From Hymenobacter sp. GOD-10R (GTDB lineage: Bacteria > Bacteroidota > Bacteroidia > Cytophagales > Hymenobacteraceae): a stretch of DNA of 64,000 bases. The position numbers and the translations under genes were made by a program. Where the stretch lies: the NCBI RefSeq assembly GCF_035609205.1, contig NZ_CP141184.1:1702501-1766500 (forward strand), given 5' to 3'. The notes below the pieces were generated by a model that worked only from the letters and a program-made list of their open reading frames with translations, was not told the origin of the DNA and ran no database searches. Positions 7,256 through 62,557 of the stretch are shown here, one piece after another. Within the stretch, counting starts at the first letter, position 1; the number at the start of each line of letters is the position of its first letter.

Positions 7256-7299
7256 AGCCTAGGCTCTGGCTGTGCGACGACGCTACCAGAACCTAGGCT
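7256..7299. terminator. Bidirectional hairpin between convergent genes
   Basis: Complementary arms (7256-7269 and 7286-7299, 13 of 14 positions pairing) are flanked by AAAA on the left and TTTT on the right. The hairpin lies between the GT4 gene and the convergent GT9 gene and can serve both. Each arm contains CCTAGG, the core of the iterated palindrome. Confidence 0.75.
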
Positions 7300-7326
7300 C
7301 ATTTTGTTGATTGAGTCCGTAAAGTG

Positions 7327-8424
7327 CTACACGCTTACGCTAGCTTGTACTGCACTAAAGACCTTACTAGCCGGTAAATCCTCCATACAGCTGGTACCTA
7401 GCTTACAGGTGCCGCGGTAGAAGCACACACACTGACGGTCGGGTTGCACGATCTGACCGCGGCCGTACAAGTCGAACTCGTAGGGGTTGAAGATGTTGTT
7501 CATCAGCACCGTCGGTTTTTGCAGGGCAATACTGATGTGCATGGCCATGGTCACCTGCGTCACGATGACGTCCATTTGGTAGAGCAGATTGATAAATTGC
7601 TCCAGCGGGAAATAACCTAGGTAGGTGGCACCCGTGGCGGCGTGCAGGCGCTGGTTGCGTTCATCTTCCGCTGCACCACCAAGCAGCACGGGCGCGTAGC
7701 CAGCTTGCTGTAGCTGGTTGATCAACAAAATCCATTTGTCGTCGGACCACAGGCGGGTTGTCCACCGGTCGCCACAGCCGGTATTCAGGCCAATGCGCGG
7801 CTTCCCAGCAGGTAGCGCATCCCAGCTGTAGCCTTTGTCTTGGTGGTTGTCGAATACGTACTCCTCGCCTCGAAACTCGTAGCCGCAGAGCTCAAATATT
7901 TCCTGCGGATATGGTTTCTGGTTCTGTAGACTCAGTTGGTCGAAAACGCCCGTCAGAAACTTGTGGTTTGCTAAGTCGTTGCCGGGCCAGGCTACGCCAT
8001 ATTCCGGATGCAGTCTGTAGCCAACCTTGCGCTTGGCCCGAATGGTGTCGTGCAAGGCGCAGGCTTCTTTATCCTTGTCGAGATTGAAGAGCAAGTCAAA
8101 CTCACGGGTTTGCAAATGCAACGTGGAAGCTAGGTCTAGCTTCAGGATTTCGTCGGCTGACCCCGCCGGTAGGATAGCTGGCGTAAGCGTGAGCCACGTA
8201 ATCTTTGCCGCCGGGTATTCTTGGCGCAAACGACGCAGCAGCGGTGTCGTACGAATGACATCACCAATGGCACCTAGCTTTATAATCAGGATACGCTCTT
8301 GTACAGGCGCATACACCGGACAGTCAGCGCACATATAGCCGTTCTCCTTATTCGGGCGGCACGGTATATCACCGCGAAAATGGCGGCAATCGGGGTGAAC
8401 GAGGATGCCGTTGAGCTCAGGCAT
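7327..8424 (-). CDS. GT9-family glycosyltransferase with two cysteine clusters
   Basis: The core matches heptosyltransferase-type (GT9) enzymes, with ILIIKLGAIGDVIRTTPLL at about 47-65, typical of ADP-heptose:LPS heptosyltransferases, and a later LNTGCGDRWTTRLW donor-site region. The protein is unusual in having four cysteines in the first 35 residues (C13, C22, C32, C35) and a second cluster near the end (CVCF, then GTCKLGTSC). These could bind zinc or an iron-sulfur cluster. The ATG at 8424 is preferred over a TTG two codons upstream. It is convergent with the GT4 gene. A role in lipopolysaccharide or surface glycan assembly is inferred. Confidence 0.85.
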   Translation of the reverse strand: MPELNGILVHPDCRHFRGDIPCRPNKENGYMCADCPVYAPVQERILIIKLGAIGDVIRTTPLLRRLRQEYPAAKITWLTLTPAILPAGSADEILKLDLASTLHLQTREFDLLFNLDKDKEACALHDTIRAKRKVGYRLHPEYGVAWPGNDLANHKFLTGVFDQLSLQNQKPYPQEIFELCGYEFRGEEYVFDNHQDKGYSWDALPAGKPRIGLNTGCGDRWTTRLWSDDKWILLINQLQQAGYAPVLLGGAAEDERNQRLHAATGATYLGYFPLEQFINLLYQMDVIVTQVTMAMHISIALQKPTVLMNNIFNPYEFDLYGRGQIVQPDRQCVCFYRGTCKLGTSCMEDLPASKVFSAVQASVSV

Positions 8425-8541: not shown

Positions 8542-9897
8542 TTAAATACCTAGGTAATTCAGCGGCGAAATAGCTCGTAACTCAGCTTTCACGGCTTCGC
8601 TTACATCCAGCGTTTCCACGAACTCGCGGATGGTTTCGGCCGAGATAGAGGTGCCGGTGCGCGTCAACGCTTTAAGAGCATTGTACGGATCAGGGTAGTT
8701 TTCGCGGCGCAAAATGGTCTGGATGGCTTCGGCCACTACGGGCCAGTTGGCTTCCAGGTCGCGACGTAGTGCTTCTTCGTCGAGAGCTAGCTTGTTCAAG
8801 CCACGCTGAAGCGAGGTGAGAGCAATGAGCGTGTGGCCGAGTGGCACGCCTAGGTTGCGCAATACCGTAGAGTCGGTGAGGTCGCGCTGGAGGCGAGAGA
8901 TGGGGAGTTTACTAGCCAGATGCTCAAGAAGGGCATTAGCAACCCCTAGGTTACCTTCTGCGTTTTCGAAATCGATAGGGTTTACCTTGTGGGGCATGGC
9001 CGACGAGCCCACTTCACCGGCTTTAACGGTTTGCCGGAAATAGCCCATCGAGATGTACTGCCATGCATCGCGGGCTAGGTCGATGAGAATGGTGTTGAGC
9101 CGTTTTAGCCCGTCGCAAGTAGCGGCAAGGTGGTCGTAGTGCTCAATTTGGGTGGTAGGATAGCTGCGGTGCAGATGAAGCGTGTCGTTCACGAACGTAT
9201 TAGCAAACGCATGCCAATCAATCTGCGGATAAGCAACGTGGTGCGCATTGAAGTTGCCCGTGGCGCCGCCAAACTTAGCCCCGAAAGGTACTTGGCCTAG
9301 CAGTTCTACCTGCGCATCGAGGCGCGCTACAAACACGGCTACTTCTTTGCCCAGGCGTGTAGGCGAGGCGGGTTGCCCGTGCGTACGGGCCAGCATAGGC
9401 ACCGCTTGCCATTCCTCTGCCCGGGTGGCAAGCTGGTTGCGCACTTGGGCGTAGGCGGGCAGTAGCACTTGCAGCAATGCCCCCTTCAGGCTGAGCGGAA
9501 TAGCTGTGTTGTTGACATCCTGGGAAGTAAGGCCAAAGTGAATAAATTCCAGGTACTGACCTAGGTCTAGGGCTGTGAACTGGTCACGAAGGAAATATTC
9601 CACTGCCTTCACGTCATGGTTGGTCACGCGCTCATGGGCCTTCACTGCTTCGGCTTCCGCAGCGCCAAAGTTGTGGTAAATGTTGCGCAGCGCTGGAAAC
9701 AGATCCGGGCTAACACCTGCTAACTGAGGCAACGGCAATTGACAGAGCGCAATAAAGTACTCCACTTCTACCAGCACGCGGTAGCGAATCAGCGCTAGCT
9801 CCGAGAAATAAGGCGCTAACGGCGCAGTTTGGCGCTGATAACGTCCATCGAGGGGCGAAACGGCGGTGAGAGGTGTCAGGGTTGTGGGGAATGACAT
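8542..9897 (-). CDS. purB: Adenylosuccinate lyase
   Basis: This enzyme acts twice in purine synthesis, splitting fumarate from SAICAR and from adenylosuccinate. The fumarase/lyase signature GSSAMPHKVNPIDFENAEGN carries the catalytic serine loop, and the N-terminal LTAVSPLDGRYQ is typical of PurB. The 451-residue length is normal. I placed the start at the ATG at 9897 (MSFPTTLTPL), not six codons upstream, because a -7 box lies just ahead at 9921-9928. It is divergent from the transglycosylase gene, sharing a short palindromic promoter region. Confidence 0.96.
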   Translation of the reverse strand: MSFPTTLTPLTAVSPLDGRYQRQTAPLAPYFSELALIRYRVLVEVEYFIALCQLPLPQLAGVSPDLFPALRNIYHNFGAAEAEAVKAHERVTNHDVKAVEYFLRDQFTALDLGQYLEFIHFGLTSQDVNNTAIPLSLKGALLQVLLPAYAQVRNQLATRAEEWQAVPMLARTHGQPASPTRLGKEVAVFVARLDAQVELLGQVPFGAKFGGATGNFNAHHVAYPQIDWHAFANTFVNDTLHLHRSYPTTQIEHYDHLAATCDGLKRLNTILIDLARDAWQYISMGYFRQTVKAGEVGSSAMPHKVNPIDFENAEGNLGVANALLEHLASKLPISRLQRDLTDSTVLRNLGVPLGHTLIALTSLQRGLNKLALDEEALRRDLEANWPVVAEAIQTILRRENYPDPYNALKALTRTGTSISAETIREFVETLDVSEAVKAELRAISPLNYLGI

Positions 9898-9920
9898 AGC
9901 GTAGAAAATGGCCAACGCAT

Positions 9921-10054: not shown

Positions 10055-12190
10055 GTGGATTCTGCTGTTAAGAAAAAGATAGGTATAGGCTTAGGCCTTG
10101 TAGTGGTGCTACTGGGCCTGGCGTTGGCTGCATTTCTGCTCAAGCGTCAACAATTGCTGGACTATGCGCTGGCACAGGTGAAAACCAAAGTGGAGCGCAA
10201 GTACCCGGCGCAGCTTACCCTAGGGCCAGCTCGCTTCACCGACCTGAACTCGGTCCGGATTGAAGGTGTGGCGCTGGTGCCTGCTGGACGCGACACGCTG
10301 TTGCGGGCTTCTAGTATCGATGCCTCGCTGAGCGTGCGGTCATTGTTTGCGGGTCGGCCAGTGTTCAGCAACCTGCAAATTGATAACGCTCGCCTCACGG
10401 CCCGTAAGACGGCGGCCGCGGATAACTACTCTTTTCTCTACCGGAAGAAGAAAACCCAGCAAGTAGCACCACGTGATACCACGAAGGGCACCAACTACGG
10501 CCTCTTGCTGAATGAGTTGTTGGAAGCAGGCTTCGACAACATTCCGGGCGAGGCGGCCTTCAAGAACTTTCTCGTAACGTACGAAAGTCCGCGGCACCAA
10601 GCCCGGATTGTCATGCCTGGCCTCACCATTGAAGATGGCGATATTACGGGGCAACTATCGGCTACCATCGACTCGGTTTCTAACAACCTAGGTATTAGCG
10701 GGCACGTGGAAGCCGGCGATTACGAGCTAGCGGCACAAGTGTACGGCCTGAATAGCCAGCCGGTCACGTTGCCGTACTTGCAGCGCCGCCTCAACGCGCG
10801 GGTGCAGTTCGATACGTTGCGCATGAGCCTAGACGGGAAGGACTTCGACGAGGAGCAACTAACGTTGCGAGGCTCGGCTTCGGCTACTCATTTTGTGCTC
10901 AATCAGCCCAAGCTGGCAGCGCGCGACATCGTTGTACAGCACGGCGGCATCAACTTTATTACGAAGCTAGGCCAAGCATCTATGGCGCTAGAAAAAGGAA
11001 CAAAGGTGCGCCTCAACCGCATTGAGTTCTACCCTACGTTCAGCATTCGCAAGCTGCCAGTACCCCAGCGGGTCATTGGGCGTAAAATAAACGGAGTCCG
11101 GAAGCGTAGTGATGCCCTCGCAGGGTTGCAAGTTTCCGCTGACATTGAATCGGCTGAGACTTCCGCGAATGACTTCTTCGCTTCCCTGCCAGAAGGCATG
11201 TTTGAAGAAGTAGAAGGCATGCAAGGTGAAGGCACGCTTACTTATAGCCTGCACACGGCGCTCGATATGAACCAGGTGGATAGCTTGAAGTTCGACTCGT
11301 CGCTACGCGGTAAGAATTTCCGCATTACCAAGTTTGGACGGGAAAACCTGAATAAGCTCAACGAAGAATTCCCGTACACCGCTTACAACGACAAAGGCGA
11401 CTCCATCAAAACGTTCTTGGTGGGACCTAGCAACAAAGATTTTGTGCCGTACGATGAGGTTTCGCGCTACCTCAAGAGTGCGATTCAAACGGCTGAAGAC
11501 CCGCGTTTCTTCACCCACAAAGGCTTCATGGAAAAGGCTTTTGTGAAGTCCGCTATTCAGAACCTAAAGGAGCGGCGCTTTGCCCGCGGGGGAAGTACAA
11601 TCTCGATGCAGCTGGTAAAGAACGTATTCCTGACCCGGCAGAAGACTGTGGCTCGCAAAGTGGAAGAAATGCTCATGGTCTGGCTAATTGAAAACACCCG
11701 TTTGGTGAGCAAGGAGCGCATGTTTGAGGTTTACTTGAACATCATTGAGTGGGGACCGAAGATTTACGGGGTAAAGGATGCTGCCCGCTTCTACTTCGAT
11801 AAGCAGCCTGCCAACCTCAACTTGTCAGAAAGCTTGTACCTAGCTAGTATCATTCCCAAGCCTAAGTTTTATCGGTATTCCTTCGATAGCTATGGCAACT
11901 TGCGGGGAAGTGCCCGCTACTTCTACCGCCTCATCGCCGACATTATGGTGGAGCGCGGCATGATTACCCAAGCCGACCGCGAAAATATGGCATTGGGCGT
12001 GGCACTGAATGGACCGGCCCGCAAGTACATCGTGACGGCCCGCGACACGACCCGAACCGCCGCGGCCGATTCTTCCCAGTTCGAGCCGCTGAACCTAATC
12101 GATTTGCTAGGTGGCAATGCTGCCCCTGATGCCGGGGTAAACAGCAACACACCCGAAACGCAGCCCGCATCCCCTCCGCCTCGACCGTAA
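10055..12190 (+). CDS. GT51 peptidoglycan transglycosylase with AsmA-like N-terminal half
   Basis: A 711-residue membrane-anchored protein. After a basic start and one membrane helix (about 5-30) comes an AsmA/DUF748-like region, followed from about residue 465 by a GT51 glycosyltransferase domain. The catalytic signature TAEDPRFFTHKGF is present, then GGSTISMQLVKNVFL and the EVYLNIIEWG block. GT51 enzymes polymerise lipid II into glycan strands outside the inner membrane. There is no transpeptidase domain, so it is monofunctional, unlike class A penicillin-binding proteins. A Pro/Thr-rich tail ends it. GTG at 10055 is chosen because the frame upstream overlaps the promoter and lacks family features. 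Confidence 0.88.
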   Translation: MDSAVKKKIGIGLGLVVVLLGLALAAFLLKRQQLLDYALAQVKTKVERKYPAQLTLGPARFTDLNSVRIEGVALVPAGRDTLLRASSIDASLSVRSLFAGRPVFSNLQIDNARLTARKTAAADNYSFLYRKKKTQQVAPRDTTKGTNYGLLLNELLEAGFDNIPGEAAFKNFLVTYESPRHQARIVMPGLTIEDGDITGQLSATIDSVSNNLGISGHVEAGDYELAAQVYGLNSQPVTLPYLQRRLNARVQFDTLRMSLDGKDFDEEQLTLRGSASATHFVLNQPKLAARDIVVQHGGINFITKLGQASMALEKGTKVRLNRIEFYPTFSIRKLPVPQRVIGRKINGVRKRSDALAGLQVSADIESAETSANDFFASLPEGMFEEVEGMQGEGTLTYSLHTALDMNQVDSLKFDSSLRGKNFRITKFGRENLNKLNEEFPYTAYNDKGDSIKTFLVGPSNKDFVPYDEVSRYLKSAIQTAEDPRFFTHKGFMEKAFVKSAIQNLKERRFARGGSTISMQLVKNVFLTRQKTVARKVEEMLMVWLIENTRLVSKERMFEVYLNIIEWGPKIYGVKDAARFYFDKQPANLNLSESLYLASIIPKPKFYRYSFDSYGNLRGSARYFYRLIADIMVERGMITQADRENMALGVALNGPARKYIVTARDTTRTAAADSSQFEPLNLIDLLGGNAAPDAGVNSNTPETQPASPPPRP

Positions 12191-18695: not shown

Positions 18696-20096
18696 TTAAT
18701 CTTGATACCCTAGGATGCGCATCATCGATTCGCTGTCTTGCTCGTCGGCAAACACCCAATCGGTGAGGGTGCCGTCTTCGGCGCGGTCCAAGATAACGTG
18801 CTTGGGCGCTGGGATCAGGCAGTGCTTGATGCCACCGTAGCCGGAGAGGCTTTCTTGGTAGGCGCCAGTGTGGAAGAAACCAACATAAAGTTTTTGCTCA
18901 TCCGTGTTCTTTCGTTCGGGCAAGAACACTTGGTAGATGTGCTTCTCGGCGTTGTAGTAGTCCTGCGAGTCGCAGGTGAGGCCGCCTAGCTGGATCTTCT
19001 TGTACGACTTCTGCCATCCGTTGATAGCCAGCATGATGAAGCGCTGGTTCAACGCCCACGTATCGGGCAGGTTCGTGATGAACGAACCATCGATCATGTA
19101 CCATAGCTCCTTGTCATTCTGTAGTTTTTCGTCCAGAATCGAGTAGAGCGTCACGCCACTTTCGCCCACCGTGAAGATGCCAAACTCGGTGAAGATGTTC
19201 GGCTCTGGCACTCCTTCTTCAGCGCAGATACGCTTGATGGTGCGTAGGATCTCTTCGATCATATAGGCATAATCGTACTCCGGCTGAATGCTGGTCTGGA
19301 TGGGCAGGCCGCCACCAATGTCGATAGTAGTGAGCGTTGGACACACTTTACGCAGCTCGCAGTACTTGTGCACGAAGCGGCTCAGCTCCGACCAGTAGTA
19401 GCTGGTGTCCTTGATGCCCGTGTTGATGAAGTAGTGCAGCATCGTGAGCTCGAAGCGCGGATCTTCCTTGATCTTCTGCTCATAGAGCGGAATGGCATCG
19501 GCGTAGCGCACGCCCAGGCGCGAGGTATAAAACTGGAACCTAGGTTCTTCGTCGGAGGCCAAGCGCATGCCTAAGTTGCACTTCTCCCGCACGTTTTCGT
19601 GGTAATACTCAATCTCTTCCAGGTTGTCGAGAATGGGCATGCAGTTCACGAAACCTTCGTTGATGAGCTCGGTAAGGTGGCGTTTGTAGCGCTCACGCTT
19701 GAAGCCGTTAGCGACGATATATGTTTGCTTGTTGATCTTGCCTTTGCTGTACAGCGCCCGCACGATGTTAATATCAAACCCCGACGATGTCTCGATCTGA
19801 ATATCGTTTTTCAGCGCCTCTTCCAGCACAAAGCTGAAGTGCGACGACTTGGTGCAGTAGCAATACGTGTAGCTGCCTTGGTAGCCAGTTTTCTGGATGC
19901 CATCGGCAAACCACTTCTTGGCCCGCTGAATCTGGGAGCTGATTTTGGGCAAGTAGCTGAGACGCAATGGGGTGCCGTGCTTCTTGATAATATCCATCAG
20001 CGGAATATCATGGAAGCGCAGCTCGTTATTTTGTACGGTAAAGTCTTGGGTAGGAAAGTCGAACGTCTGAGAAATCAGGTCGTGATAGGTATCCAT
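18696..20096 (-). CDS. speA: Arginine decarboxylase (PLP-dependent, fold III)
   Basis: The enzyme makes agmatine from arginine, the first step of a polyamine route. Visible features are the PLP-lysine region YTYCYCTKSSH near residue 80, the phosphate-binding IDIGGGLP, the active-site Cys-Asp LTCDSQDYY and, near the end, GFFHTGAYQ. I start at the ATG at 20096 (MDTYHDL), because upstream in-frame codons look like leader. At about 466 residues it is shorter than the E. coli biosynthetic enzyme and matches the compact form found in Bacteroidota. It is divergent from an arginase-family gene, which points to a shared arginine/polyamine role. Confidence 0.92.
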   Translation of the reverse strand: MDTYHDLISQTFDFPTQDFTVQNNELRFHDIPLMDIIKKHGTPLRLSYLPKISSQIQRAKKWFADGIQKTGYQGSYTYCYCTKSSHFSFVLEEALKNDIQIETSSGFDINIVRALYSKGKINKQTYIVANGFKRERYKRHLTELINEGFVNCMPILDNLEEIEYYHENVREKCNLGMRLASDEEPRFQFYTSRLGVRYADAIPLYEQKIKEDPRFELTMLHYFINTGIKDTSYYWSELSRFVHKYCELRKVCPTLTTIDIGGGLPIQTSIQPEYDYAYMIEEILRTIKRICAEEGVPEPNIFTEFGIFTVGESGVTLYSILDEKLQNDKELWYMIDGSFITNLPDTWALNQRFIMLAINGWQKSYKKIQLGGLTCDSQDYYNAEKHIYQVFLPERKNTDEQKLYVGFFHTGAYQESLSGYGGIKHCLIPAPKHVILDRAEDGTLTDWVFADEQDSESMMRILGYQD

Positions 20097-20419: not shown

Positions 20420-21421
20420 ATGAAACGCATTAAGCTCATTGAAGTCCGTTCCGAGCTAGGAGCGGGCACTCGTGGGGCTAGTCTTGGAATAGACGCTCTG
20501 CGCATTGCTTGTCTGAACAAAGGTTCTGATTATTTCCGGCGCTTCAACGCCGTTGCCGTGCCCGATCTGAACCACGTGCTGTTCGACAAAAACCACTTTC
20601 CTTATGCCAAGCACATCGACTCGGTGTACACGGTGCAAAAGGGCATTGCTAATACGGTAGAACAGACCCTTCGTTTCGGCGAGTTTCCGCTGGTGCTGGC
20701 CGGCGACCACTCCAACGCCGCCGGCACTATTGCCGGCATCAAGGCCGCCTACCCGCACAAAACGCTCGGCGTGGTCTGGATCGATGCTCACGCCGACATC
20801 CACTCGCCCTACACCACGCCCTCCGGCAACATGCACGGCATGCCGTTGGCCATGGCCCTGAACGAGGATAACCGCGTGATGCAGCGCAACGAACCGGAGC
20901 CTGAAACCGAGTTCTTTTGGCGTCGCCTACAAAACCTAGGCGAGCCTGGCCCCAAGCTCACGCCCGACCACCTCGTGTACGTGATGGTACGCGACACCCA
21001 GCGCGAAGAAGACGAACTGATCGAGAGGCTAGGTATTAAAAATTATGTGCTCGATGAGTTCCGGGCGAAAGGACCTAGGTTGGTCGCCCGCGAAATCTAC
21101 GAGCGGCTACGCTTCTGCGACCTGGTTTACGTGTCCTTCGATGTGGATTCACTGGATTCGCGCTTCAGCAAAGGCACCGGCACACCTGTGGAAGCCGGTC
21201 TGAACGTGCAGGAAGCTATCAGCCTATGTCACTACTTGCTGGAAAATGAACGGGTCGTGTGCTTCGAGATGGTAGAAATAAACCCAACGCTTGACTCCGA
21301 AAACACAATGGCCAAGAATGCTTTCGATATTCTGGAAGCGGCCACTGAAGCCATTCAGGAGCGGCTACGGCTGGAAGAAGCTACCTCGCGCGGACCTAGG
21401 GGGGAGGTGGCGAATGGGTGA
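20420..21421 (+). CDS. Arginase/agmatinase family ureohydrolase
   Basis: A 333-residue binuclear manganese hydrolase. Metal-binding motifs are GDHSNAAG, WIDAHADIHSP and SFDVDSLDSRFSKGTGTP, the last with the DxD pair and the conserved Gly-Thr-Pro. The family splits urea from arginine or agmatine. The N-terminal sequence (LIEVRSELGAGTRGASLG) and GDHS look closer to arginase, but the position divergent from arginine decarboxylase suggests agmatinase; I cannot decide from sequence alone. The ATG at 20420 gives the natural MKRIKLIEV start. The gene is separated from speA by about 320 bases that carry both promoters. Confidence 0.88.
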   Translation: MKRIKLIEVRSELGAGTRGASLGIDALRIACLNKGSDYFRRFNAVAVPDLNHVLFDKNHFPYAKHIDSVYTVQKGIANTVEQTLRFGEFPLVLAGDHSNAAGTIAGIKAAYPHKTLGVVWIDAHADIHSPYTTPSGNMHGMPLAMALNEDNRVMQRNEPEPETEFFWRRLQNLGEPGPKLTPDHLVYVMVRDTQREEDELIERLGIKNYVLDEFRAKGPRLVAREIYERLRFCDLVYVSFDVDSLDSRFSKGTGTPVEAGLNVQEAISLCHYLLENERVVCFEMVEINPTLDSENTMAKNAFDILEAATEAIQERLRLEEATSRGPRGEVANG

Positions 21422-21533: not shown

Positions 21534-22553
21534 ATGAAATACAATCTGTTAGGTAACACTGGCCTGAAAGTCTCAGAGCTGTGCCTAGGTACTATGACCT
21601 TCGGCGGAAAAGGCTGGGCAAAAGCCATCGGTTCGCTCGGACAAGAGCAAGTAGACGAGATAATGAAGCGCTCCATCGATGCGGGTATTAACTTCATCGA
21701 CACGGCCAACGTGTATTCGGAAGGCTTATCGGAGGAACTGACTGGCCAATCCTTCCGCAACCTAGGTATCGACCGCCACGACCTCGTGCTGGCCACCAAG
21801 GTGCGTGGCAAAATGGGAGAGGGACCGAACCAAGTTGGCTTGACGCGCAAGCACATCATGGATCAGGCCGAAGCTAGCCTCAAGCGCCTGAACACCGACT
21901 ACATCGACCTCTACCAGATTCACTCCTACGACCCACTCACGCCGCTGGAAGAAACCCTGCGTGCGCTAGACGACTTGGTGCGCAGCGGCAAAGTGCGCTA
22001 CATCGGGGCCAGTAACCTAGCCGCGTGGCAGCTGATGAAAGCGCTGTCGTACTCGACCTACAACCACGTAGAAAAGTTTGTGTCGTTGCAAGCTTACTAC
22101 ACCATCGCCGGCCGCGACTTAGAACGTGAACTGGTGCCGTTGCTGCAAGATCAGAAAGTGGGCTTGATGGTGTGGAGCCCGCTGGCGGGTGGCTTCCTGA
22201 GTGGCAAATACACGCGCGAAAACCAAGGAGAAGAAGGCTCACGTCGTACCGGCTTCGACTTCCCACCCGTTGATAAGGAAAAAGCCTACGACATCATCGA
22301 CGTGTTGCAGCCAATGGCCGAAGCAAAAGGTGTCACGGTCGCGCAAATAGCACTGGCCTGGCTGCTCCATCAGCCGGTAGTGACTAGCGTGATTATCGGG
22401 GCAAAGCGCATGGATCAACTTGAAGACAATCTGAAGGCCATCGATGTACAGCTTACCCCTGAGGATTTGCAAAAGCTAGATGACGTTAGCAAGTCGGCGC
22501 CGGAGTATCCGGGCTGGATGCTGGAGTTCACGCAAGGTGACCGTCAGGTGTAA
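21534..22553 (+). CDS. Aldo/keto reductase
   Basis: A 339-residue NADPH-dependent oxidoreductase with a TIM-barrel fold. The catalytic tetrad can be seen: Asp and Tyr in [11 protein letters not shown], Lys in LATKVRG and His in YQIHSYDP. The C-terminal cofactor loop is [18 protein letters not shown]. It resembles the general stress/YhdN-like group of aldo/keto reductases. It stands alone between the ureohydrolase and a terminator. The physiological substrate is unknown. Confidence 0.93.
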
Positions 22554-23188: not shown

Positions 23189-24982
23189 GTGCAACAACTC
23201 GAAAATAGCATCAAAGCAGCGCTCAGCGCCGCTATCCAGCAAGCATTCGGCGCGCAGGTGCCGGCCGAACAGCTCACCTTGCAGCCCACCCGCAAAGATT
23301 TTGCGGGCTCTTTCACCCTTGTCACGTTTCCACTGACCAAAGCGCTGGGCAAAGGCCCGGAGCAGATTGGGCAAGCCCTGGGCGAGTGGCTCGTAGCCAA
23401 CGAGTCGCGTGTGAGCGGCTTCAACGTGGTGAAAGGCTTTCTGAACCTGGAAATTGCTGATAAGGAATGGGTGCGCCTCTTTACCGAGCTTAGCCAGCGC
23501 CCTAATAACGCCCCCGTGCCCACCGGCGGTCCGCAGCAAGTAGTGGTCGAATACTCTTCGCCCAATACCAACAAGCCCCTGCACCTAGGTCACCTGCGCA
23601 ACAACTTTCTGGGCTACTCGGTGGCGCAGATCCTGAAAGCAACCGGCGCTACCGTCACAAAGGCAAACCTGGTGAATGACCGCGGCATCCACATCTGTAA
23701 GTCGATGCTAGCCTACCAGCAGTATGGACACAACGAAACGCCGGAGGAAGCGGGTATCAAAGGTGACCACCTGATCGGCAAGTACTACGTGCTATTTGAG
23801 AAGCACTACCGCGAGCAAGTGCGTCAACTCGAAGCAGAAGGCGTTGCCTCCGATATTGCCAAACGCCAAGCGCCCATGATGCTGGAAGCGCAAGATATGC
23901 TGCGCGCCTGGGAAGCCGCCGACGAGGACGTAGTGAGCCTATGGCGCCAAATGAACGGCTGGGTGTACGAAGGCTTCGACGAAACCTACGCTACTATTGG
24001 CGTTGATTTCGACAAGATGTACTACGAATCGGAAACCTACCTGCTAGGCAAGGAGCGGGTGGAAGAAGGCCTGCAAAAAGGCGTGTTTTTCCGCAAAGAC
24101 GACGGCTCGGTGTGGGTGGATCTGAAGGAAGAAGGACTCGACGAGAAGCTGCTGCTCCGCGCCGATGGCACTAGCGTGTACATCACCCAAGACCTAGGCA
24201 CAGCCGAGCTGAAGTACGAGGATTTTGGCTACGACCTGTCCGTCTACGTCATTGCCGACGAGCAGAACTACCACATGCAGGTGCTGAAGGCGGTACTCAA
24301 AAAGCTAGGTAAGCCCTACGCCGATGCCATTTATCACCTCAGCTACGGCATGGTCGATTTGCCCTCGGGCAAAATGAAGAGCCGTGAAGGGACTGTGGTT
24401 GACGCCGATGAGCTGGTACAGGAAGTAACGGATGCCGCCCGCCAGGCTACCAGCGAGCTAGGGAAGATCGAAGGCCTAACCGAACAGGAAGCGGAGAAGC
24501 TCTACCATACCCTAGGTTTGGGCGCGCTGAAATACTACTTGCTGAAAGTTGATCCCAAGAAGCGTATGCTCTTCAACCCCGAGGAATCGGTGCAGTTGCA
24601 AGGGCACACAGGACCGTTCATCCAGTATTCACATGCTCGTATTGCGGCTATTCGTCGCAAAGCGGCTGAGCTAGGTCTGAGCGAAACTCCCGACCTAGCT
24701 ACCCTGACGTCGCTGCACGAAACGGAAGTGGGCATGGTACAGGAGCTAGCCCGTTACCCCAACGTAGTGGCGGAAGCGGCCACTACGATGTCGCCGGCTA
24801 TTATCGCGCAGTATGCTTATGACTTGGCCAAGGCCTACAACCGCTTCTATACCGAAGTATCGGTGTTCGGCGAGACCGACGAGACTAAGCGTAATTTCCG
24901 CGTAGCGCTTTCGGCGCAAACGGGCCGCATGATCAAAGCCGCCATGCTGCTACTAGGTATTGACGTGCCCGAGCGGATGTAA
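23189..24982 (+). CDS. argS: Arginyl-tRNA synthetase
   Basis: A class I aminoacyl-tRNA synthetase that charges tRNA-Arg. The HIGH motif appears as HLGH within SSPNTNKPLHLGHLRNN, and a KMSKS-like site as GKMKSREGT. The N-terminal additional domain of ArgS and the C-terminal DALR anticodon-binding domain (from SVQLQGHTGPFIQYSHAR onward) are both present. I chose GTG at 23189, giving about 598 residues and the normal MQQLENSIKAAL start; an ATG at 23153 would add twelve unrelated residues. Confidence 0.95.
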   Translation: MQQLENSIKAALSAAIQQAFGAQVPAEQLTLQPTRKDFAGSFTLVTFPLTKALGKGPEQIGQALGEWLVANESRVSGFNVVKGFLNLEIADKEWVRLFTELSQRPNNAPVPTGGPQQVVVEYSSPNTNKPLHLGHLRNNFLGYSVAQILKATGATVTKANLVNDRGIHICKSMLAYQQYGHNETPEEAGIKGDHLIGKYYVLFEKHYREQVRQLEAEGVASDIAKRQAPMMLEAQDMLRAWEAADEDVVSLWRQMNGWVYEGFDETYATIGVDFDKMYYESETYLLGKERVEEGLQKGVFFRKDDGSVWVDLKEEGLDEKLLLRADGTSVYITQDLGTAELKYEDFGYDLSVYVIADEQNYHMQVLKAVLKKLGKPYADAIYHLSYGMVDLPSGKMKSREGTVVDADELVQEVTDAARQATSELGKIEGLTEQEAEKLYHTLGLGALKYYLLKVDPKKRMLFNPEESVQLQGHTGPFIQYSHARIAAIRRKAAELGLSETPDLATLTSLHETEVGMVQELARYPNVVAEAATTMSPAIIAQYAYDLAKAYNRFYTEVSVFGETDETKRNFRVALSAQTGRMIKAAMLLLGIDVPERM

Positions 24983-26410: not shown

Positions 26411-26439
26411 ACCTAGGTTTTCGCAAGTCTGTTTTTGAT

Positions 26440-29750: not shown

Positions 29751-30031
29751 GGTTCAGCGAATTACTAGTGGATAAATGGCTGACCCTGAGTTCCCGGTCA
29801 GCAAACCGCTTAATGGTAATGTAGTAAAGGTAAGTATTTTCAACGGGCACTGCCGAGTTGTCAATAACCTAGGTAGTAACAAGCAGAATACTATTTTTAC
29901 TCTGTAGAGCCGCACTATTTTGCCGCTCGGCATCGAACGATCCAGCCATAGCAATTTAGGCTAAGAGCATCAGCAACGACGAGCCGCCAAGTAGTACGCC
30001 TCTACAGGAGACCAACGGAAGTAGTTGGTCC
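29751..30031. other. Intergenic gap upstream of the helicase gene
   Basis: About 280 bases without a gene, holding the likely helicase promoter. A short hairpin (GCTGACC with GGTCAGC, about 29779-29803) would form in the helicase leader RNA. One exact ACCTAGGT (29867-29874) lies here outside any coding frame. Confidence 0.5.
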
Positions 30032-45585: not shown

Positions 45586-45732
45586 CCAGAGTTCCGGTTG
45601 CCAGTTCGAAACCTAGGTGTCGATTAGTAAGCATATTTCAGGAGCTAATAGGCTTCGTATTCAGCTAGCTAGCAGGGAAGAAACTGGCATTGAATAAGCA
45701 AACGCACGAGCATTTGCTTACTTTCAATCCCT

Positions 45733-47877: not shown

Positions 47878-48125
47878 GAGGGGAAAAGAGCAGCTAAATG
47901 GATTGTGCTGGCTAAAATAACATTTTCACTTGTACTGTAAGCACTTCGTTATACTATTTCTTGAAATTATTACTGTGGGAATTGTGGTGATAATTGTGCG
48001 CACGAGCTTCTCACGCTATGTTTGATAGCAATAGCGCTGGGGCATAGGGCTCGCTGAGCAACTACCTAGGTCGCACGCTCAGCAGTGTATTCAGTAATAA
48101 GAACGATCAATTATAGTGGCGTAAA

Positions 48126-55775: not shown

Positions 55776-57152
55776 ATGTCGTACCACTACACCATCCGCC
55801 AGCACACCTACGTCTTCGAGGACCTAAAAACACTCCTAGCGCGGGCCACGCCGCTGCGCTCCGGCGACGTGCTGGCCGGAGTAGCGGCAGAAACCTACGA
55901 GGAGCGCGTAGCCGCCCAACTCGCCCTAGCCGACGTGCCGCTACGCACCTTTCTCCAAGAAGCCCTCGTGCCCTACGAGCAAGACGAAGTCACCCGCCTC
56001 ATCCTCGATTCGCACAATGCCGTAGCTTTTGCGCCTATCAGCCACTTCACCGTAGGGCAGCTGCGCGATTGGCTTCTCTCGGAAGCCGCCGATACGCCGA
56101 CGCTGCAAAACCTAGCTCCCGGCCTCACACCCGAAATGGTAGCGGCCGTGTCCAAGCTCATGCGCAACCAGGAGTTGATTGCCGTGGCGCGCAAGTGCGA
56201 AGTCGTCACGCAATTTCGCAACACCCTAGGTCTGCGCGGACACTTGGCTACGCGCCTGCAACCCAACCACCCTACCGATGATGCCCGCGGCATTGCTGCC
56301 AGTCTCGTCGACGGCCTTCTCTACGGCAGCGGCGACGCGGTTATCGGCATCAATCCGGCCACCGATAACCCGCAAGTCGTGAGCAACTTACTGCACATGC
56401 TGGATGCCGTACGCGAGCAGTACGCCATTCCGACCCAGTCGTGCGTGCTGTGCCACGTCACGACGGCCTTGCAGCTGATCGAGCAGAAGGCGCCGGTCGA
56501 TCTGACGTTCCAATCCATCGGCGGCACCGAGGCCACGAATGCCAGCTTCGGTGTGAACCTAGGTCTGTTGCAGGAAGCCTGGGAAGCCACGCTGAGCCTG
56601 AATCGCGGCACCTTGGGCCAACACGTCATGTACTTCGAAACGGGGCAGGGCAGCGCCCTTTCGGCCAACGCCCACCACGGCCTCGACCAGCAAACCTGCG
56701 AAGCCCGCGCCTACGCCGTAGCCCGACGGTTTCAGCCGTTGCTGGTCAACTCCGTTGTCGGCTTCATCGGTCCCGAATACCTCTACGACGGCAAGCAAAT
56801 TACGCGGGCTGCTTTGGAAGACCACTTCTGCGGCAAGCTCCTAGGTCTGCCGATGGGCATGGACATCTGCTACACCAACCACGCCGAAGCCGACCAAGAC
56901 GACATGGATAACTTGCTCACCCTGCTAGGGGTGGCCGGCTGCAACTACATCATGGGCGTGCCCGGCGCCGACGACATTATGCTGAATTATCAGTCCACGT
57001 CCTTCCACGATGCGCTGTACGTGCGTCAGGTGCTAGGTCTGCGCCCCGCGCCAGAGTTCGAGGCGTGGCTGTTGCAGCAGGGGATTTTTGATGAGCGGGG
57101 AAAATTGTTGCCAGCGCAGGCTGGGCACCGGTTATTAGAGGTAGGACGGTGA
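55776..57152 (+). CDS. eutB: Ethanolamine ammonia-lyase large subunit
   Basis: A 458-residue TIM-barrel subunit of the adenosylcobalamin-dependent enzyme that turns ethanolamine into acetaldehyde and ammonia. Conserved regions are DAVIGINPATDNPQ, QSIGGTEATNASFGVN, in part, YFETGQGSALSANAHHG and MDICYTNHAEADQDD. The length is normal and no damage is seen. The start at 55776 (MSYHYTIRQ) lies outside the repeat; a longer frame would run through it. The small subunit gene eutC, which binds part of the cobalamin and normally follows directly, is absent: the next gene is an unrelated AT-rich nuclease. It needs EutC supplied from elsewhere to work. Confidence 0.95.
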   Translation: MSYHYTIRQHTYVFEDLKTLLARATPLRSGDVLAGVAAETYEERVAAQLALADVPLRTFLQEALVPYEQDEVTRLILDSHNAVAFAPISHFTVGQLRDWLLSEAADTPTLQNLAPGLTPEMVAAVSKLMRNQELIAVARKCEVVTQFRNTLGLRGHLATRLQPNHPTDDARGIAASLVDGLLYGSGDAVIGINPATDNPQVVSNLLHMLDAVREQYAIPTQSCVLCHVTTALQLIEQKAPVDLTFQSIGGTEATNASFGVNLGLLQEAWEATLSLNRGTLGQHVMYFETGQGSALSANAHHGLDQQTCEARAYAVARRFQPLLVNSVVGFIGPEYLYDGKQITRAALEDHFCGKLLGLPMGMDICYTNHAEADQDDMDNLLTLLGVAGCNYIMGVPGADDIMLNYQSTSFHDALYVRQVLGLRPAPEFEAWLLQQGIFDERGKLLPAQAGHRLLEVGR

Positions 57153-58280: not shown

Positions 58281-59510
58281 ATGGCATCTAAGAGTACCCT
58301 TAAAAACCATCTGTTCACGAGTGCCTTCGGAGCTGGCTTGCTGCTGATTACGTGCGGCGTGAGCAATACGGCCCTAGGGCAATCGAGCCACACTAGTCCG
58401 TGGGCGCCGACGATTATTAATACCCCGCCGCCAGTTGCTAGCATCACGAACGGGGTGTGGCTGAAGGGAGATCTGCACGTGCACTCTCGGCATAGCAAAG
58501 AGTCCTCGAACAACCCCATTGCGAAGATTCTGGCTTTCTCCCAGTCAGTCGGCATGGATTACCTAGGTATCACCGACCACGACAACCACGTGGAGGGCGA
58601 CGTGGCGCACAACACCTGGGCCGACCCCGAGTTCAAATCCAACTCAGTATTGCTTCTCTACGGCGCCGAATGGACTACCACGCGCGGCCACGGCAACGCC
58701 TTTTCGGCTCGCCCCTACGATCATCAGCGGCTCTACGACGTGCGCGACCAGCGCGACATGGTAGTCGGGGCGGTGAAGAAGGAGCTAGGTATCCATCTGT
58801 CGGCCAACCACCCGAGCGGGAAGGACCATTTTGGCTACTCCTACGACATGCTCGAATCGCTGGAAGTGTGGAATTCCGTGCTGTGGTCTAAGAACGCCAA
58901 TGCCATCATGATCTGGGACGACATGCTTTCCTCAGGCCGTAAGCTGACGGGTAGGGGCGGGAGCGACGCCCACCACGGCACTCCCGATGCGCCCGACAAA
59001 GCAACGCCCAATAGCAAGCAGGCAAAAGCCAACTACGTAGGCACGCCCACGACTTGGGTATTCGCCACCGCGCGTACCACGCAGGCCGTCGTGGACGCCC
59101 TGACCAACGGGCGAGTTTCGGTTAGCGCCAACCCGTACGCTCCGCGCGTTGAGTTCTACGCCGACCTAAACCAAGATGGCAAAATGGACCTGATGATGGG
59201 CGACAATGTCGTTGCCACGGGCAAGCCCGTCAAGTTTCGCGTGCAGCTCACGGGCAAGCTAGCGCCGGGAGCCGCCTATACCGTCAGCGTGGTGAAGAAT
59301 GGCGGGCAGCTGGATACGTTGCAAATAAGCGGCAAAACGGCCATGGCCGAGTTTACCGATACGCCGGCAACGCTCGGGCGGACGTATTACCGTGTGATGG
59401 TGCAGGGGCCGCCTACGGCCTACCCGCAGGTGCCCGAGTCGATGGCGCTGAGCGAAAAGATGGTCGGGCTGTCGAATCCTATTTACTTCAACTTCGACCC
59501 TAACTTTTGA
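58281..59510 (+). CDS. Secreted CehA/McbA-type PHP-domain metallohydrolase
   Basis: A protein of about 409 residues with a signal peptide (ending near TALGQ). The PHP fold shows its metal motifs: DLHVHSRHS, GITDHDNHVEGD, ANHPSG and RGGSDAHH, in order. CehA/McbA proteins hydrolyse carbamate esters or phosphate esters, but the wider family's substrates vary. A C-terminal beta domain follows (from about residue 290). The ATG at 58281 gives the best signal. It and the next gene, both exported, may be part of carbohydrate or ester degradation; that is inferred. Confidence 0.88.
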   Translation: MASKSTLKNHLFTSAFGAGLLLITCGVSNTALGQSSHTSPWAPTIINTPPPVASITNGVWLKGDLHVHSRHSKESSNNPIAKILAFSQSVGMDYLGITDHDNHVEGDVAHNTWADPEFKSNSVLLLYGAEWTTTRGHGNAFSARPYDHQRLYDVRDQRDMVVGAVKKELGIHLSANHPSGKDHFGYSYDMLESLEVWNSVLWSKNANAIMIWDDMLSSGRKLTGRGGSDAHHGTPDAPDKATPNSKQAKANYVGTPTTWVFATARTTQAVVDALTNGRVSVSANPYAPRVEFYADLNQDGKMDLMMGDNVVATGKPVKFRVQLTGKLAPGAAYTVSVVKNGGQLDTLQISGKTAMAEFTDTPATLGRTYYRVMVQGPPTAYPQVPESMALSEKMVGLSNPIYFNFDPNF

Positions 59511-59767
59511 ATCCGGAGCTTTCTACAATCAGGTTATGCCTGTTAGACCGTCGTGCTTCGGCTAGCGCAGCATGATCTACGGCTACCTACGGCTTTCTAA
59601 ACTCTGCTCGGCTAGATTGCAAATTTGGTTGAGTCGGCTGCGCTGCTGCACCTAGCTTAGTAGTTGGTTAAGCGGCTTGTATGCAACAGGTCCGTATAGT
59701 TTTGGGAGGTGCGTTGCTTTACATTAGCCCTATAAACAACCAATTCACTGCACCTAGCTAGCCTTGC

Positions 59768-62557
59768 ATGCTCAGAATATCCGCGCTTTTTCCTGTCGTC
59801 GTTGGCTTGCTAGCAGCCTTTTCCATTGATGGTGAAAAGCTTGCTGTTTTAACTAATCATATTTTTTCCAAGAAGATAGCTGATGCCGATAAGCCACCTT
59901 ATGCGGTGCTAGCAACTAGGGAGCATATCCTGATCAACGAAGGCTGGAAGTTCTTCCGGTACGACTCGCCCGAAAAGGCCGACAGCCTGATCTACGACGT
60001 GCGGCCGGAAGTGCGGAACGAGCAGGACAGCAAAGCCGCCGACTCCCGACCCACCGAAGCTGTGGCTGTGACGGCCAACCGAACCGTGCTCAAGCCGTGG
60101 ATTCTGCCCACGGGCAACGCCTTTCTGAAAGACCCGGCCAAGCGCCACGCCCGCCCCGCCGGTAATCCGGGCGGCAACTTCCCATTTGTGCAGACGCAGT
60201 TCAACGACCAAGCGTGGGAAAGCGTGGATCTGCCGCACGACTGGGCCATCAAAGGGCCTTTCTACGTGGGTGAGGGGGTGCCCATTGGCGGGGGCATGGG
60301 CCGCTTACCGGTGCAAGGCGTGGCTTGGTACCGAAAGAAACTTCAGATTCCGGCCTCCGACGCAGGTCGCACCATTTACCTGGACGTGGACGGGGCCATG
60401 TCGTACGCCATGGTGTGGATGAATGGCAAGCTGGTGGGCGGCTGGCCCTACGGCTACTCGTCTTGGCGCCTGGACCTGACACCTTATCTCATTCCCGGTG
60501 CCGATAACCAGCTCGCTATTCGCCTGGATAATCCGCCCGGCTCGGCGCGGTGGTACCCTGGGGGCGGCATCTACCGCAATGTGTGGCTGACCAAGGTAAA
60601 CCCCGTGCACGTGGGCCAGTGGGGGACCGTCGTCAAGACCCGCAACGTGAGCAAGGCCGCGGCCACCATCGACTTGCGCGTGTCTGTTGCCAACAAGGCC
60701 ACTAGCAGCGCCAGCGTGGACGTGGCAACGGAGATTTACGCCCTGAACGCCAATGGCGAAAAAACCGGCCGGTCCTTAGCTAAGCTAGCTCCGACGAAGG
60801 CGACGATTCGGGCCCAGTCCGCCGACACCGTTTCTGGTTCGGTTGTTATAACTAACCCCAAGCTCTGGGGACCGCCGCCTACCCAAACGCATAATCGGTA
60901 CGTGGCCGTGACGACCGTTTCGGCCCAAGGTAAAACGCTCGACACGTACCAGACCACCTTTGGCATTCGCGAAGTGCGGTTTGATCCTGATAAAGGCCTC
61001 TTTGTCAATGGGGAGCACATCGTTATCAAAGGCGTCAACCAGCACCACGACCTAGGTGCCTTGGGTGCCGCCTTCAACGTGCGGGCTGCCGAACGCCAGC
61101 TGCAACTTCTGCGCGAAATGGGCTGTAATGCCATCCGCATGTCGCACAACCCGCCCGCACCCGAGTTGCTGGAGCTGACCGACCGCCTAGGTTTTCTGGT
61201 AATTGATGAGGTGTTTGACTCGTGGGAAACGAAAAAGACGCCGCTCGATTTTCACCTCATCTTCCCCGACTGGCACGAGCAGGACCTGCGGGCCCTAGTG
61301 CGCCGCGACCGGAATAGCCCCTCCGTTATCCTCTGGAGCTTTGGCAACGAGGTGGGCGAGCAGTACACGGGCGAGAGAGGCGCCGCCGTAGCGAGGGAAC
61401 TGCATGCCATCGTGAAAGAGGAAGACCCCACCCGCCCAACCACCGTGGCCATGAACTACGCCAAGCCCGACATGCCGCTGCCAGCCGTAGTAGACGTCAT
61501 CAGCCTCAACTACCAGGGCGAGGGCATCCGCTACGATGGCGCCTACAAGGGCTTAAAGGGCATAACCACGCCGCCGCTGTTCCCGGAGTTTCACAAGAAA
61601 TTTCCCGGCAAGATGATTCTGAGCAGCGAGAACGCCTCGGCGCTGAGTAGCCGCGGCGAGTACCTGCTTCCGGTCTTCAACGGCAACAGCGCCCCCGTGC
61701 TCGACGGCCAGGGCGGCGACCCGACAACGCACCAGGTAAGCGCCTATGAGCTATATTCCGTCGCGTTTGGGTCGTCGGCCGATAAGGTGTTTGCCACCAT
61801 GGCGCAGCACCCCTACGTGGCCGGCGGCTTCGTCTGGACGGGCTGGGACTACCTAGGTGAGCCCACGCCCTACTACTCCTCGCGCAGCTCCTATTCCGGC
61901 ATCATCGACCTGGCCGGGTTCAAGAAAGACCGTTTTTACCTCTACCAAGCCTATTGGCGCCCGGAGGTGCCCATGGCTCACCTGCTGCCGCACTGGAACT
62001 GGCCTCAGCGCCTAGGTCAGGTGGTGCCCGTGCACGTCTTCACCTCCGGCGACGAGGCCGAACTGTTCCTGAACGGTAAGTCGCTGGGTCGCAAGAAAAA
62101 AGCAGCAGGTGAGTACCGTGTGCGCTGGGACGACGTGGTGTACGCGCCGGGCGAGTTGAAGGTGGTAGCTTACAAGAACGGCAAGCGTTGGGCAGAGGAT
62201 GTCGTGAAAACTACAGGCGAAGCAGCTAGCCTCAAGCTCACCGCCGACCGTGCGACGATGGATGCCACAGGAACGGGCCTCATCTTCGTAACCGCGCAAC
62301 TCACCGATAAAAACGGCTTGCCCGTATCGAATGCCAAGAACAAGATCCAATTCTTTATCGAAGGCCCCGGCGAGATTGTCGCCACTGACAACGGGGATGC
62401 AGCCAATATAGAGTCGTTTGCTTCGCCGGAACGGGAGGCATTTAATGGCAAGTGTCTCGTTATTGTGCGCGGGAAAAAAGGGCAAGCCGGAACGATCCGG
62501 TTGAAAGCGCAGGCTAGCGGGTTGGAAAGCGCGACTATTTCGTTGAAGAGCAAGTAA
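59768..62557 (+). CDS. Secreted GH2 beta-galactosidase-type glycoside hydrolase
   Basis: A 929-residue enzyme. A signal-like N-terminus is followed by the GH2 jelly-roll (about 60-270), an Ig-like domain (to about 390), the TIM barrel (about 395-690), a DUF4982-type domain and a C-terminal Ig-like domain. The acid/base Glu is residue 528 in SFGNEVGEQ and the nucleophile Glu is residue 621 in LSSENASAL. The family removes terminal beta-linked galactose or related sugars. It probably acts in the periplasm or outside. A -33-like TTTTG and a TACATTAG box lie about 50 bases upstream. No SusC/D pair is adjacent, so it is not in a typical PUL here. Confidence 0.93.
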   Translation: MLRISALFPVVVGLLAAFSIDGEKLAVLTNHIFSKKIADADKPPYAVLATREHILINEGWKFFRYDSPEKADSLIYDVRPEVRNEQDSKAADSRPTEAVAVTANRTVLKPWILPTGNAFLKDPAKRHARPAGNPGGNFPFVQTQFNDQAWESVDLPHDWAIKGPFYVGEGVPIGGGMGRLPVQGVAWYRKKLQIPASDAGRTIYLDVDGAMSYAMVWMNGKLVGGWPYGYSSWRLDLTPYLIPGADNQLAIRLDNPPGSARWYPGGGIYRNVWLTKVNPVHVGQWGTVVKTRNVSKAAATIDLRVSVANKATSSASVDVATEIYALNANGEKTGRSLAKLAPTKATIRAQSADTVSGSVVITNPKLWGPPPTQTHNRYVAVTTVSAQGKTLDTYQTTFGIREVRFDPDKGLFVNGEHIVIKGVNQHHDLGALGAAFNVRAAERQLQLLREMGCNAIRMSHNPPAPELLELTDRLGFLVIDEVFDSWETKKTPLDFHLIFPDWHEQDLRALVRRDRNSPSVILWSFGNEVGEQYTGERGAAVARELHAIVKEEDPTRPTTVAMNYAKPDMPLPAVVDVISLNYQGEGIRYDGAYKGLKGITTPPLFPEFHKKFPGKMILSSENASALSSRGEYLLPVFNGNSAPVLDGQGGDPTTHQVSAYELYSVAFGSSADKVFATMAQHPYVAGGFVWTGWDYLGEPTPYYSSRSSYSGIIDLAGFKKDRFYLYQAYWRPEVPMAHLLPHWNWPQRLGQVVPVHVFTSGDEAELFLNGKSLGRKKKAAGEYRVRWDDVVYAPGELKVVAYKNGKRWAEDVVKTTGEAASLKLTADRATMDATGTGLIFVTAQLTDKNGLPVSNAKNKIQFFIEGPGEIVATDNGDAANIESFASPEREAFNGKCLVIVRGKKGQAGTIRLKAQASGLESATISLKSK

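Follow-up and report, generated by a model that had tools for sequence, protein, structure and literature searches.

A palindromic octamer, ACCTAGGT, occurs exactly 23 times in the window analysed here, a stretch of 64,000 nucleotides of Hymenobacter sp. GOD-10R (contig NZ_CP141184.1, positions 1,702,501 to 1,766,500 of the forward strand; the genome is hereafter G000). None of 100 dinucleotide shuffles of the window reached this number (mean 0.62, maximum 3), first-order z ranks ACCTAGGT first among the over-represented 8-mers of the window, and the hexamer CCTAGG was counted 61 times against 13.8 predicted by a first-order Markov model. These counts bear out the sequence-only reading of the window, which had reported 23 octamers and about 60 hexamers in 64 kb; the limits it gave, 7258 and 62016, mark the first and the last CCTAGG. 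That reading had also placed sites in genes of both strands and in at least five intergenic spots, in agreement with simple open reading frame (ORF) calls (longest non-overlapping ORFs of at least 90 amino acids, made with no trained gene finder): nine sites lie in plus-strand ORFs, nine in minus-strand ORFs and five are intergenic. tRNA genes were looked for in the window and none was found.

The copies of ACCTAGGT are listed below with their fate in H. crusticola MIMBbqt21 (G019), H. cavernae CGMCC 1.15197 (G013) and G032, the genome next nearest to the trio of G000, G013 and G019 by ArgS identity (85%), as read from alignments to these three relatives.

7615..7622, ORF 7327-8430 (minus strand): CCCTAAGT in G019, CCCTAGGT in G013, ACCCAAGT in G032
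8548..8555, ORF 8542-9915 (minus strand): kept in G019, not in G013
9559..9566, ORF 8542-9915 (minus strand): kept in G019, not in G013
10686..10693, ORF 9908-12190 (plus strand): kept in G019, not in G013
19538..19545, ORF 18696-20156 (minus strand): kept in G019 and G013, absent from G032
21073..21080, ORF 20387-21421 (plus strand): not kept in G019, G013 or G032
21760..21767, ORF 21534-22553 (plus strand): kept in G019 and G013
23583..23590, ArgS ORF 23153-24982 (plus strand): kept in G013; ACCTAGGC in G019, ACCTAGGG in G032
25363..25370, ORF 25140-25721 (plus strand): kept in G019; ACCTAGGC in G013
26411..26418, intergenic: kept in G013, not in G019
29867..29874, intergenic: AGCTAGGT in G019
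30536..30543, ORF 30032-31072 (minus strand): GCCTAGGT in G019 and G032, ACCTAGAT in G013
30740..30747, ORF 30032-31072 (minus strand): kept in G019 and G013, absent from G032
35831..35838, intergenic: ACCTAGGC in G019, ACCCAGGC in G013
36309..36316, ORF 36033-36680 (minus strand): kept in G013, not in G019
37135..37142, glycogen synthase ORF 36793-38682 (minus strand): kept in G019 and G013, absent from G032
43961..43968, ORF 43907-45286 (minus strand): kept in G019 and G013, absent from G032
45611..45618, intergenic: kept in G019
48064..48071, intergenic: no aligned relative
56557..56564, ORF 55719-57152 (plus strand): kept in G019 and G013
58561..58568, ORF 58254-59510 (plus strand): no aligned relative
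61050..61057, ORF 59768-62557 (plus strand): kept in G013; G019 not aligned
61851..61858, ORF 59768-62557 (plus strand): kept in G013; G019 not aligned

The excess extends to the whole genome (7,508,807 bases in 7 contigs, reported 100% complete), which holds 1,867 copies of ACCTAGGT against 32 of the reversed-word control. Under a second-order Markov model the observed-to-expected ratio (O/E) of ACCTAGGT is 17 in a 364-kb sample of G000 that includes the window, 44 in a 560-kb sample of H. cavernae and 18 in a 241-kb sample of H. crusticola, and in the samples of all three genomes it is the highest-scoring 8-mer by first-order z. These counts lie far from Markov expectation, and the excess is confirmed in window and genome alike. 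CTAG runs against its usual rarity, as had been claimed: its first-order O/E is 1.38 in G000 (1.2-1.4 across the three genomes) versus 0.35 across 27 ArgS loci from other species of Hymenobacter.

Independence from codon use

The excess of ACCTAGGT is independent of codon use. In syntenic regions of 240-320 kb, its density is higher between genes than within them, at 0.653 per kb intergenic versus 0.254 coding in G000, 1.178 versus 0.466 in H. cavernae, 0.331 versus 0.281 in H. crusticola and 0.026 versus 0.004 in G032. Within genes, the rare codons CTA and AGG are favoured only where they complete CTAG. In G000 the leucine codon CTA makes up 29% of choices ahead of G and 9-11% ahead of other bases, versus 6-7% in G032 whatever the next base. 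The arginine codon AGG reaches 23-42% after a codon ending in CT, versus 1-7% after the five other endings shown. The spelling C-CTA-GGN accounts for 69% of such Leu-Gly pairs in G000, 63% in H. crusticola and 65% in H. cavernae, versus 8% in G032. Codon usage, or a single codon pair without intergenic enrichment, is therefore ruled out as the cause, since the word is denser between genes than within them and the preferred codon depends on the base that follows. Protein sequence itself bends slightly toward the word, because counts of the tripeptides [YHND]LG depart from composition expectation: 100 observed versus 81 expected in H. cavernae, 96 versus 86 in G000, 92 versus 87 in H. crusticola and 85 versus 107 in G032.

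Anatomy and spacing of the word

Samples of the three genomes show a strict CTAG core, variants of ACCTAGGT at positions 3 and 4 occurring at 0.26-1.54 of expectation, with deviations tolerated at the outer positions, as in HIP-type words (after the highly iterated palindrome HIP1 of cyanobacteria). Position 2 accepts G readily (AGCTAGGT/ACCTAGCT at 7-12 times expectation), T less readily (1.7-3.0 times) and disfavours A (0.46-0.83), while the remaining bases at position 1 stand 2.4-8.3 times over expectation. Outer-position variants other than A at position 2 thus span 1.7-12 times expectation. The signal is broader than the octamer, with AGCTAGCT at 2.7-4.9 times over expectation and ACCTAGCT, GCTAGC and CCTAGC raised too. 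The flanks hold no longer consensus, except for a mild preference for A at -1 in H. cavernae, and the sites therefore do not resemble a mobile repeat that has been copied.

The spacing of ACCTAGGT is near random (coefficient of variation 0.91-1.02), with close pairs slightly scarce in G000 and H. cavernae. Intergenic density by gap type is even in G000 (0.65-0.69 per kb) and highest in the convergent gaps of H. cavernae (9 sites, 1.95 per kb versus 1.0-1.2), and H. crusticola has just 10 intergenic sites, none in divergent gaps. No preference for divergent, convergent or codirectional gaps and no spacing signal is consistent across the three genomes, and the proposed role as a segregation signal gains no support from spacing or gene context. 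Densities in DNA that is unshared versus shared by all three are 0.372 and 0.300 per kb in G000, 0.703 and 0.413 in H. cavernae, and 0.176 and 0.371 in H. crusticola, the noncoding share differing between the two classes.

Distribution in the genus and order

Iteration of ACCTAGGT is clade-specific, the outcome of the comparison with related genomes that the sequence-only reading had proposed. More than 400 copies occur in 5 of 120 Hymenobacter genomes, namely H. cavernae (3,262), G000 (1,867), H. crusticola (1,815), H. setariae Fur1 (G071; 492) and Hymenobacter sp. BT559 (G087; 450), and the remaining 115 have at most 60, including 22 in G032. Among 390 genomes of the order, drawn from a larger group, the top counts beyond those of G000 and H. 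cavernae are 138, 124, 115 and 106. In an ArgS tree of 82 rows built with a quick method, the trio forms one clade with a support of 99 (Shimodaira-Hasegawa-like approximate likelihood ratio test, SH-aLRT), and G032 falls outside it at an open fork. Separately deposited genomes carry sites at the same places, which contradicts a sequencing artefact.

Retention between species

ACCTAGGT and CCTAGG are retained between species well above control palindromes. At aligned places compared pairwise between genomes, with 8-bp palindromes that lack a CTAG core as controls, ACCTAGGT was kept at 27/47 from G000 to H. crusticola (controls 0.26), 29/42 from G000 to H. cavernae (0.20) and 24/37 from H. crusticola to H. 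cavernae (0.21). Starting from H. cavernae, which is richer in sites, the figures are 29/74 to G000 and 24/53 to H. crusticola (controls 0.23 and 0.24). CCTAGG was kept at 95/143 from G000 to H. crusticola and 85/138 from G000 to H. cavernae, versus 0.35 and 0.28 for other 6-bp palindromes. With G032 as the target no ACCTAGGT was kept, neither of 21 places from G000 nor of 50 from H. cavernae. Over six comparisons, identity was 0.81-0.91 at the sites versus 0.78-0.82 in their flanks. In the syntenic region, 13 copies of ACCTAGGT common to H. crusticola and H. cavernae are missing in G000, and 3 common to G000 and H. cavernae are missing in H. crusticola.

A frame-matched comparison points the same way. 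Where [YHND]-Leu-Gly is conserved, exact ACCTAGGT was kept at 22/31 places in H. crusticola and 22/27 in H. cavernae, versus 5/20 and 1/15 for other CTAG spellings. A stricter loss test, with H. cavernae as the outgroup, identical context and a background matched for trinucleotides but not for codon position, counted 3 losses of CCTAGG versus 18.4 expected, 10 of CTAG versus 39.6 and 2 of GCTAGC versus 4.6; as controls, six other 4-bp palindromes stood at 0.68-1.38 of expectation, CGATG at 1.08 and CCTGG at 1.87. Site creation was not sped up in the strict-context count, C[C>T]AG changes numbering 15/372 (0.040) versus 0.048 for all C>T. A second lineage behaves likewise: of 40 CCTAGG places compared between H. 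setariae and sp. BT559, 30 were kept, against a background of 0.46.

Gains and losses assigned to branches are small and alignment-biased, a gain needing identical non-site words in two species; they amount to 55/38 and 63/51 for CTAG, and for ACCTAGGT to 0/13 in G000 and 2/3 in H. crusticola. These figures hint that the lineage to which the window belongs may be losing ACCTAGGT.

Other palindromic words in Hymenobacter

Other members of the genus iterate other words. CCTAGG exceeds 1,000 copies in 10 of 120 genomes: H. setariae (8,806), sp. BT559 (8,591), G055 (7,530), H. cavernae (5,949), H. crusticola (5,749), G000 (5,585), H. fodinae 92R-1 (G024; 2,331), G119 (2,190), G026 (2,027) and G111 (1,209); all others have at most 888. 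The flanks of the hexamer differ among these genomes. The sample of G055 favours CCCTAGGG (25 in 40 kb), in those of H. setariae and sp. BT559 the flanks of CCTAGG are weakly biased away from T, with A and C commonest, and the small samples of H. fodinae, G026 and G119 (15 kb each) hold a TGGCCTAGG word. A longer word around TGGCCTAGGCCA, by appearance an extended palindrome, is iterated in the same three small samples and at locus L231. GCTAGC is iterated in two of 81 ArgS neighbourhoods, and that of Solirubrum puertoriconensis iterates CACCTAGG, with 27 CCTAGG in 22 kb; this species falls inside the Hymenobacter ArgS tree. GCTAGC/GGCTAGCC is iterated in two species (L259 and L272) near CCTAGG-iterating ones, and core positions are not shared. 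GGGCCC exceeds 8,000 copies in 6 of 120 genomes (8,560-15,647), the others having at most 4,443; this palindrome, which has no CTAG core, was also seen in named loci of H. coccineus and H. caeli.

With word labels read off lists by eye, the ArgS tree needs at least 9 changes. Of 25 places where CCTAGG of H. setariae was aligned with CA2-7, a GCTAGC species, only 3 have CTAG in the latter, and the commonest counterpart is CCTGGG. For the CCTAGG and GCTAGC species compared, the idea that words merely switch flanks around common core positions is rejected. The words look at least partly separately gained, because core positions are not common to species that differ in their word.

Search for the agent

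A search for a cognate methylase, as the sequence-only reading had advised, drew on profiles of five Pfam methyltransferase families: PF00145 (5-methylcytosine, m5C), PF01555, PF02086 (Dam-type), PF02384 and PF07669. PF00145, PF01555 and PF02086 gave no match in G000 or in H. crusticola, families such as MT-A70 and the EcoRI-type methyltransferases lying outside the search. With PF02384 and PF07669, G000 yields two enzymes, namely HsdM of type I, encoded on contig C6, and a 1,119-amino-acid MmeI-like type IIG enzyme, encoded on contig C2. Both contigs are small and probably plasmids, and neither enzyme would be expected to read a palindrome. The proposed role as a methyltransferase target thus finds no obvious candidate in G000 among the five families, and it is unlikely that the agent there is a standard PF00145, PF01555 or PF02086 methyltransferase.

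The MmeI-like enzyme (L114:3638-6994) is 93% identical to enzymes in G055 and G105 and 85% identical to one in H. setariae. It has matches at E <= 1e-100 in 62 of 120 genomes of the genus, yet none in H. cavernae, H. crusticola, H. fodinae, sp. BT559 or G119, and is rejected as the agent. H. cavernae has one PF00145 m5C enzyme, plus a type IIG enzyme that shares 54% identity with one from sp. BT559, and H. crusticola has three PF02384 matches, including a further type IIG enzyme and a distant HsdM (31% identity with the G000 HsdM). No close homologue common to the three ACCTAGGT genomes appeared among the proteins compared (cross-matches of 26-31% identity). As to a restriction pair for ACCTAGGT, no candidate was seen in the five methyltransferase families, endonuclease families not being part of the search; the word is enriched rather than avoided in G000.

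Possible explanations

The parallel with HIP1 (GCGATCGC) drawn by the sequence-only reading is well supported. As with HIP1 and the alternate HIPs, ACCTAGGT is a palindrome and the top 8-mer, spread genome-wide over coding and noncoding DNA, with outer deviations around an intact core and lineage-specific replacements. It differs in its host, Bacteroidota instead of cyanobacteria, in its CTAG core, in the occurrence of several words in one genus and in its lower density, about 250 per Mb in G000 and 580 in H. cavernae; Elhai 2015 gives HIP1 mostly 1000-2000 per Mb, elsewhere 500-2500 (PMC4390886). According to the same paper, the role and origin of HIP1 were still called a mystery in 2015, partly as HIP1 tracks cyanobacterial phylogeny (PMC4390886). 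Very few bacterial genomes have octamers as frequent as HIP1, according to a paper that cites unpublished work (PMC3497702). The 18-nucleotide repetitive extragenic palindrome of Caldithrix abyssi is likewise over-represented outside cyanobacteria with no larger repeat around it; it has 38 exact copies, almost only intergenic, whereas ACCTAGGT is an 8-mer with 1,867 copies, many within genes (PMC5317091). Our literature search, with most subscription journals outside it, found no account of ACCTAGGT or CCTAGG iteration, or of a methylome, in Hymenobacter; papers on over-represented or highly iterated palindromes were mostly cyanobacterial, and none by its title concerned Bacteroidota. Papers that contain ACCTAGGT are, judged by title, about other matters, Hymenobacter turned up in connection with palindromes only in a LexA paper, and in two methylome papers CCTAGG figures solely in a cited title on phage lambda; nothing came up on over-represented CTAG palindromes in bacterial genomes. 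Within the literature searched, the statement that the word is undescribed for this group holds.

We judge the balance to be even on whether ACCTAGGT is a HIP-like word held by a protein that acts in trans, recognises DNA symmetrically and keeps its own sites in place, most likely by biasing repair. This judgement leans on the retention of ACCTAGGT and CCTAGG. A clade-specific palindrome would have spread through the chromosome and be kept by a sequence-specific process acting in trans, which would read double-stranded DNA symmetrically, with a strict CTAG core, C better than G adjoining it and A best outermost. The agent would be a putative protein acting on DNA by repair, by modification or by binding, and would tilt mismatch repair or fixation in favour of the site it recognises; sites would then pile up wherever coding permits and decay slowly, and agents of differing specificity would give lineages differing words. 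Among the roles raised by the sequence-only reading, repair or retention bias fits best, given the retention counts; the methyltransferase target and the segregation signal fared worse, as described above. Very short patch repair of the Vsr type is a comparable system, its sequence-specific enzyme leaving a genome-wide bias around CTAG. The known Vsr lowers CTAG, which is raised in the Hymenobacter trio.

Several observations weigh against this explanation. No candidate agent was found among the proteins searched. Pairwise retention of CTAG alone is no better than that of other 4-bp palindromes (0.547 versus 0.534 from G000 to H. crusticola, 0.421 versus 0.499 from G000 to H. cavernae), in contrast to the strict loss test, so that the retention evidence for CTAG by itself is mixed, and other NNCTAGNN words are kept below average 8-mers (0.193 versus 0.280; 0.112 versus 0.241). 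Many NNCTAGNN and CTAG words may be recent, because CTAG gains exceed losses on both branches, which would explain the low retention. For CCTAGG, losses exceed gains on both branches (19/7 in G000, 9/2 in H. crusticola), and the GCTAGC species pair showed no retention (10/25, background 0.49). Intergenic copies of ACCTAGGT alone, few in number, were kept at 3/9, 5/8, 0/3, 5/10, 0/7 and 1/2 over the six comparisons (background 0.17-0.23), a result only suggestive of intergenic conservation. A mutational push is possible in that a looser count put CCAG to CTAG at 0.076 versus 0.027 for the reverse. In G000, the six smaller contigs carry 1, 2, 2, 9, 0 and 1 copies in their first 20 kb, overall below the chromosome. 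A model of independent half-sites, which suits a few combinations but fits poorly overall (r 0.32-0.41), is not claimed.

A CCAG deamination hotspot, Dcm-like without repair, was considered as a source of new sites and rejected: the looser count hinted at it, the strict-context count gave no support and G000 has no m5C enzyme match.

Retention is also predicted by the main rival to a repair bias, selection for a distributed binding site, in which a symmetric chromosomal protein (for the nucleoid, segregation, recombination or topology) would use ACCTAGGT with a tiny fitness gain per site. We regard this rival as possible, if on the unlikely side. The retention of ACCTAGGT and CCTAGG, the higher identity at sites than in flanks and the [YHND]LG counts, above expectation in H. 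cavernae and below it in G032, all fit selection; the near-random spacing and the lack of a consistent gap-type preference do not. Furthermore, sister lineages have different words at different positions, and very many sites would have to be rebuilt for each new specificity.

Methyltransferase-directed drive, proposed for the cyanobacterial HIPs by Elhai 2015, appears improbable here; in this model the word is marked by its cognate methyltransferase and then favoured by mismatch repair. The anatomy of ACCTAGGT is the same as that of HIP1, and H. cavernae has its one m5C enzyme. Restriction-modification systems with 6-bp palindromic sites typically target words such as CCTAGG, GCTAGC and GGGCCC. 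The three families without a match in G000 and H. crusticola speak against the drive, as do the enzymes that G000 does have, only HsdM and the MmeI-like enzyme among the five families searched, and the lack of a close homologue common to the three species among the enzymes found. Elhai 2015 reports a putative methyltransferase with the ability to recognise the word in every cyanobacterial genome where words are highly over-represented, notes some HIP1-rich genomes that lack an enzyme for CGATCG, and proposes that GmeC directs mismatch repair (PMC4390886). This G-meC mismatch-repair model lacks its enzyme here because G000 has no m5C (PF00145) match, and missing the expected families in a genome reported 100% complete challenges the HIP mechanism published there (PMC4390886).

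Very unlikely, in our estimation, is a DNA uptake signal with dialects, in which competence would favour word-bearing DNA and recombination would spread it, as with the DNA uptake sequences (DUS) of Neisseriaceae. DUS are not known to be palindromes; ACCTAGGT is one, and it is poorer in unshared chromosomal DNA only in H. crusticola, not in G000 or H. cavernae. The words of the sister species compared do not fall at common core positions, and GGGCCC is without a CTAG core. Thousands of copies, species-specific variants and retention between species are what favours uptake, the first two being shared with the DUS dialects described by Frye et al. 2013 (PMC3630211). The eight dialects in that paper have a required CTG core in common (PMC3630211). 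Ordinary composition, a codon effect or a sequencing artefact can practically be dismissed: GC content and codon use do vary among species, yet intergenic density exceeds coding density, codon preference changes with the following base and separately deposited genomes share the places of their sites.

More broadly, Hymenobacter lineages might repeatedly gain their own palindromic watermark (at least 6 words) through methylation-independent, sequence-specific retention by a protein family that would shift the genome toward the site it recognises and could be replaced by a variant with another word, a generalisation that we advance tentatively and think rather doubtful. A HIP-like pattern occurs here outside the cyanobacteria, in named species, beside close relatives without it and others with different words. 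This amounts to a natural experiment in which gene presence, methylomes and mutation spectra are comparable across several apparently separate gains, and a puzzle known from cyanobacteria becomes testable elsewhere.

Further observations

GGATCC is almost absent (0-1 copies) from several genomes, for example G096, G104, G006, G009, G065 and G067, which looks like strong avoidance of an apparent restriction site. The non-palindromic CTACCC(C) is raised at least about 3-fold over other loci at L268, L230, L227, L225, L262 and L215.

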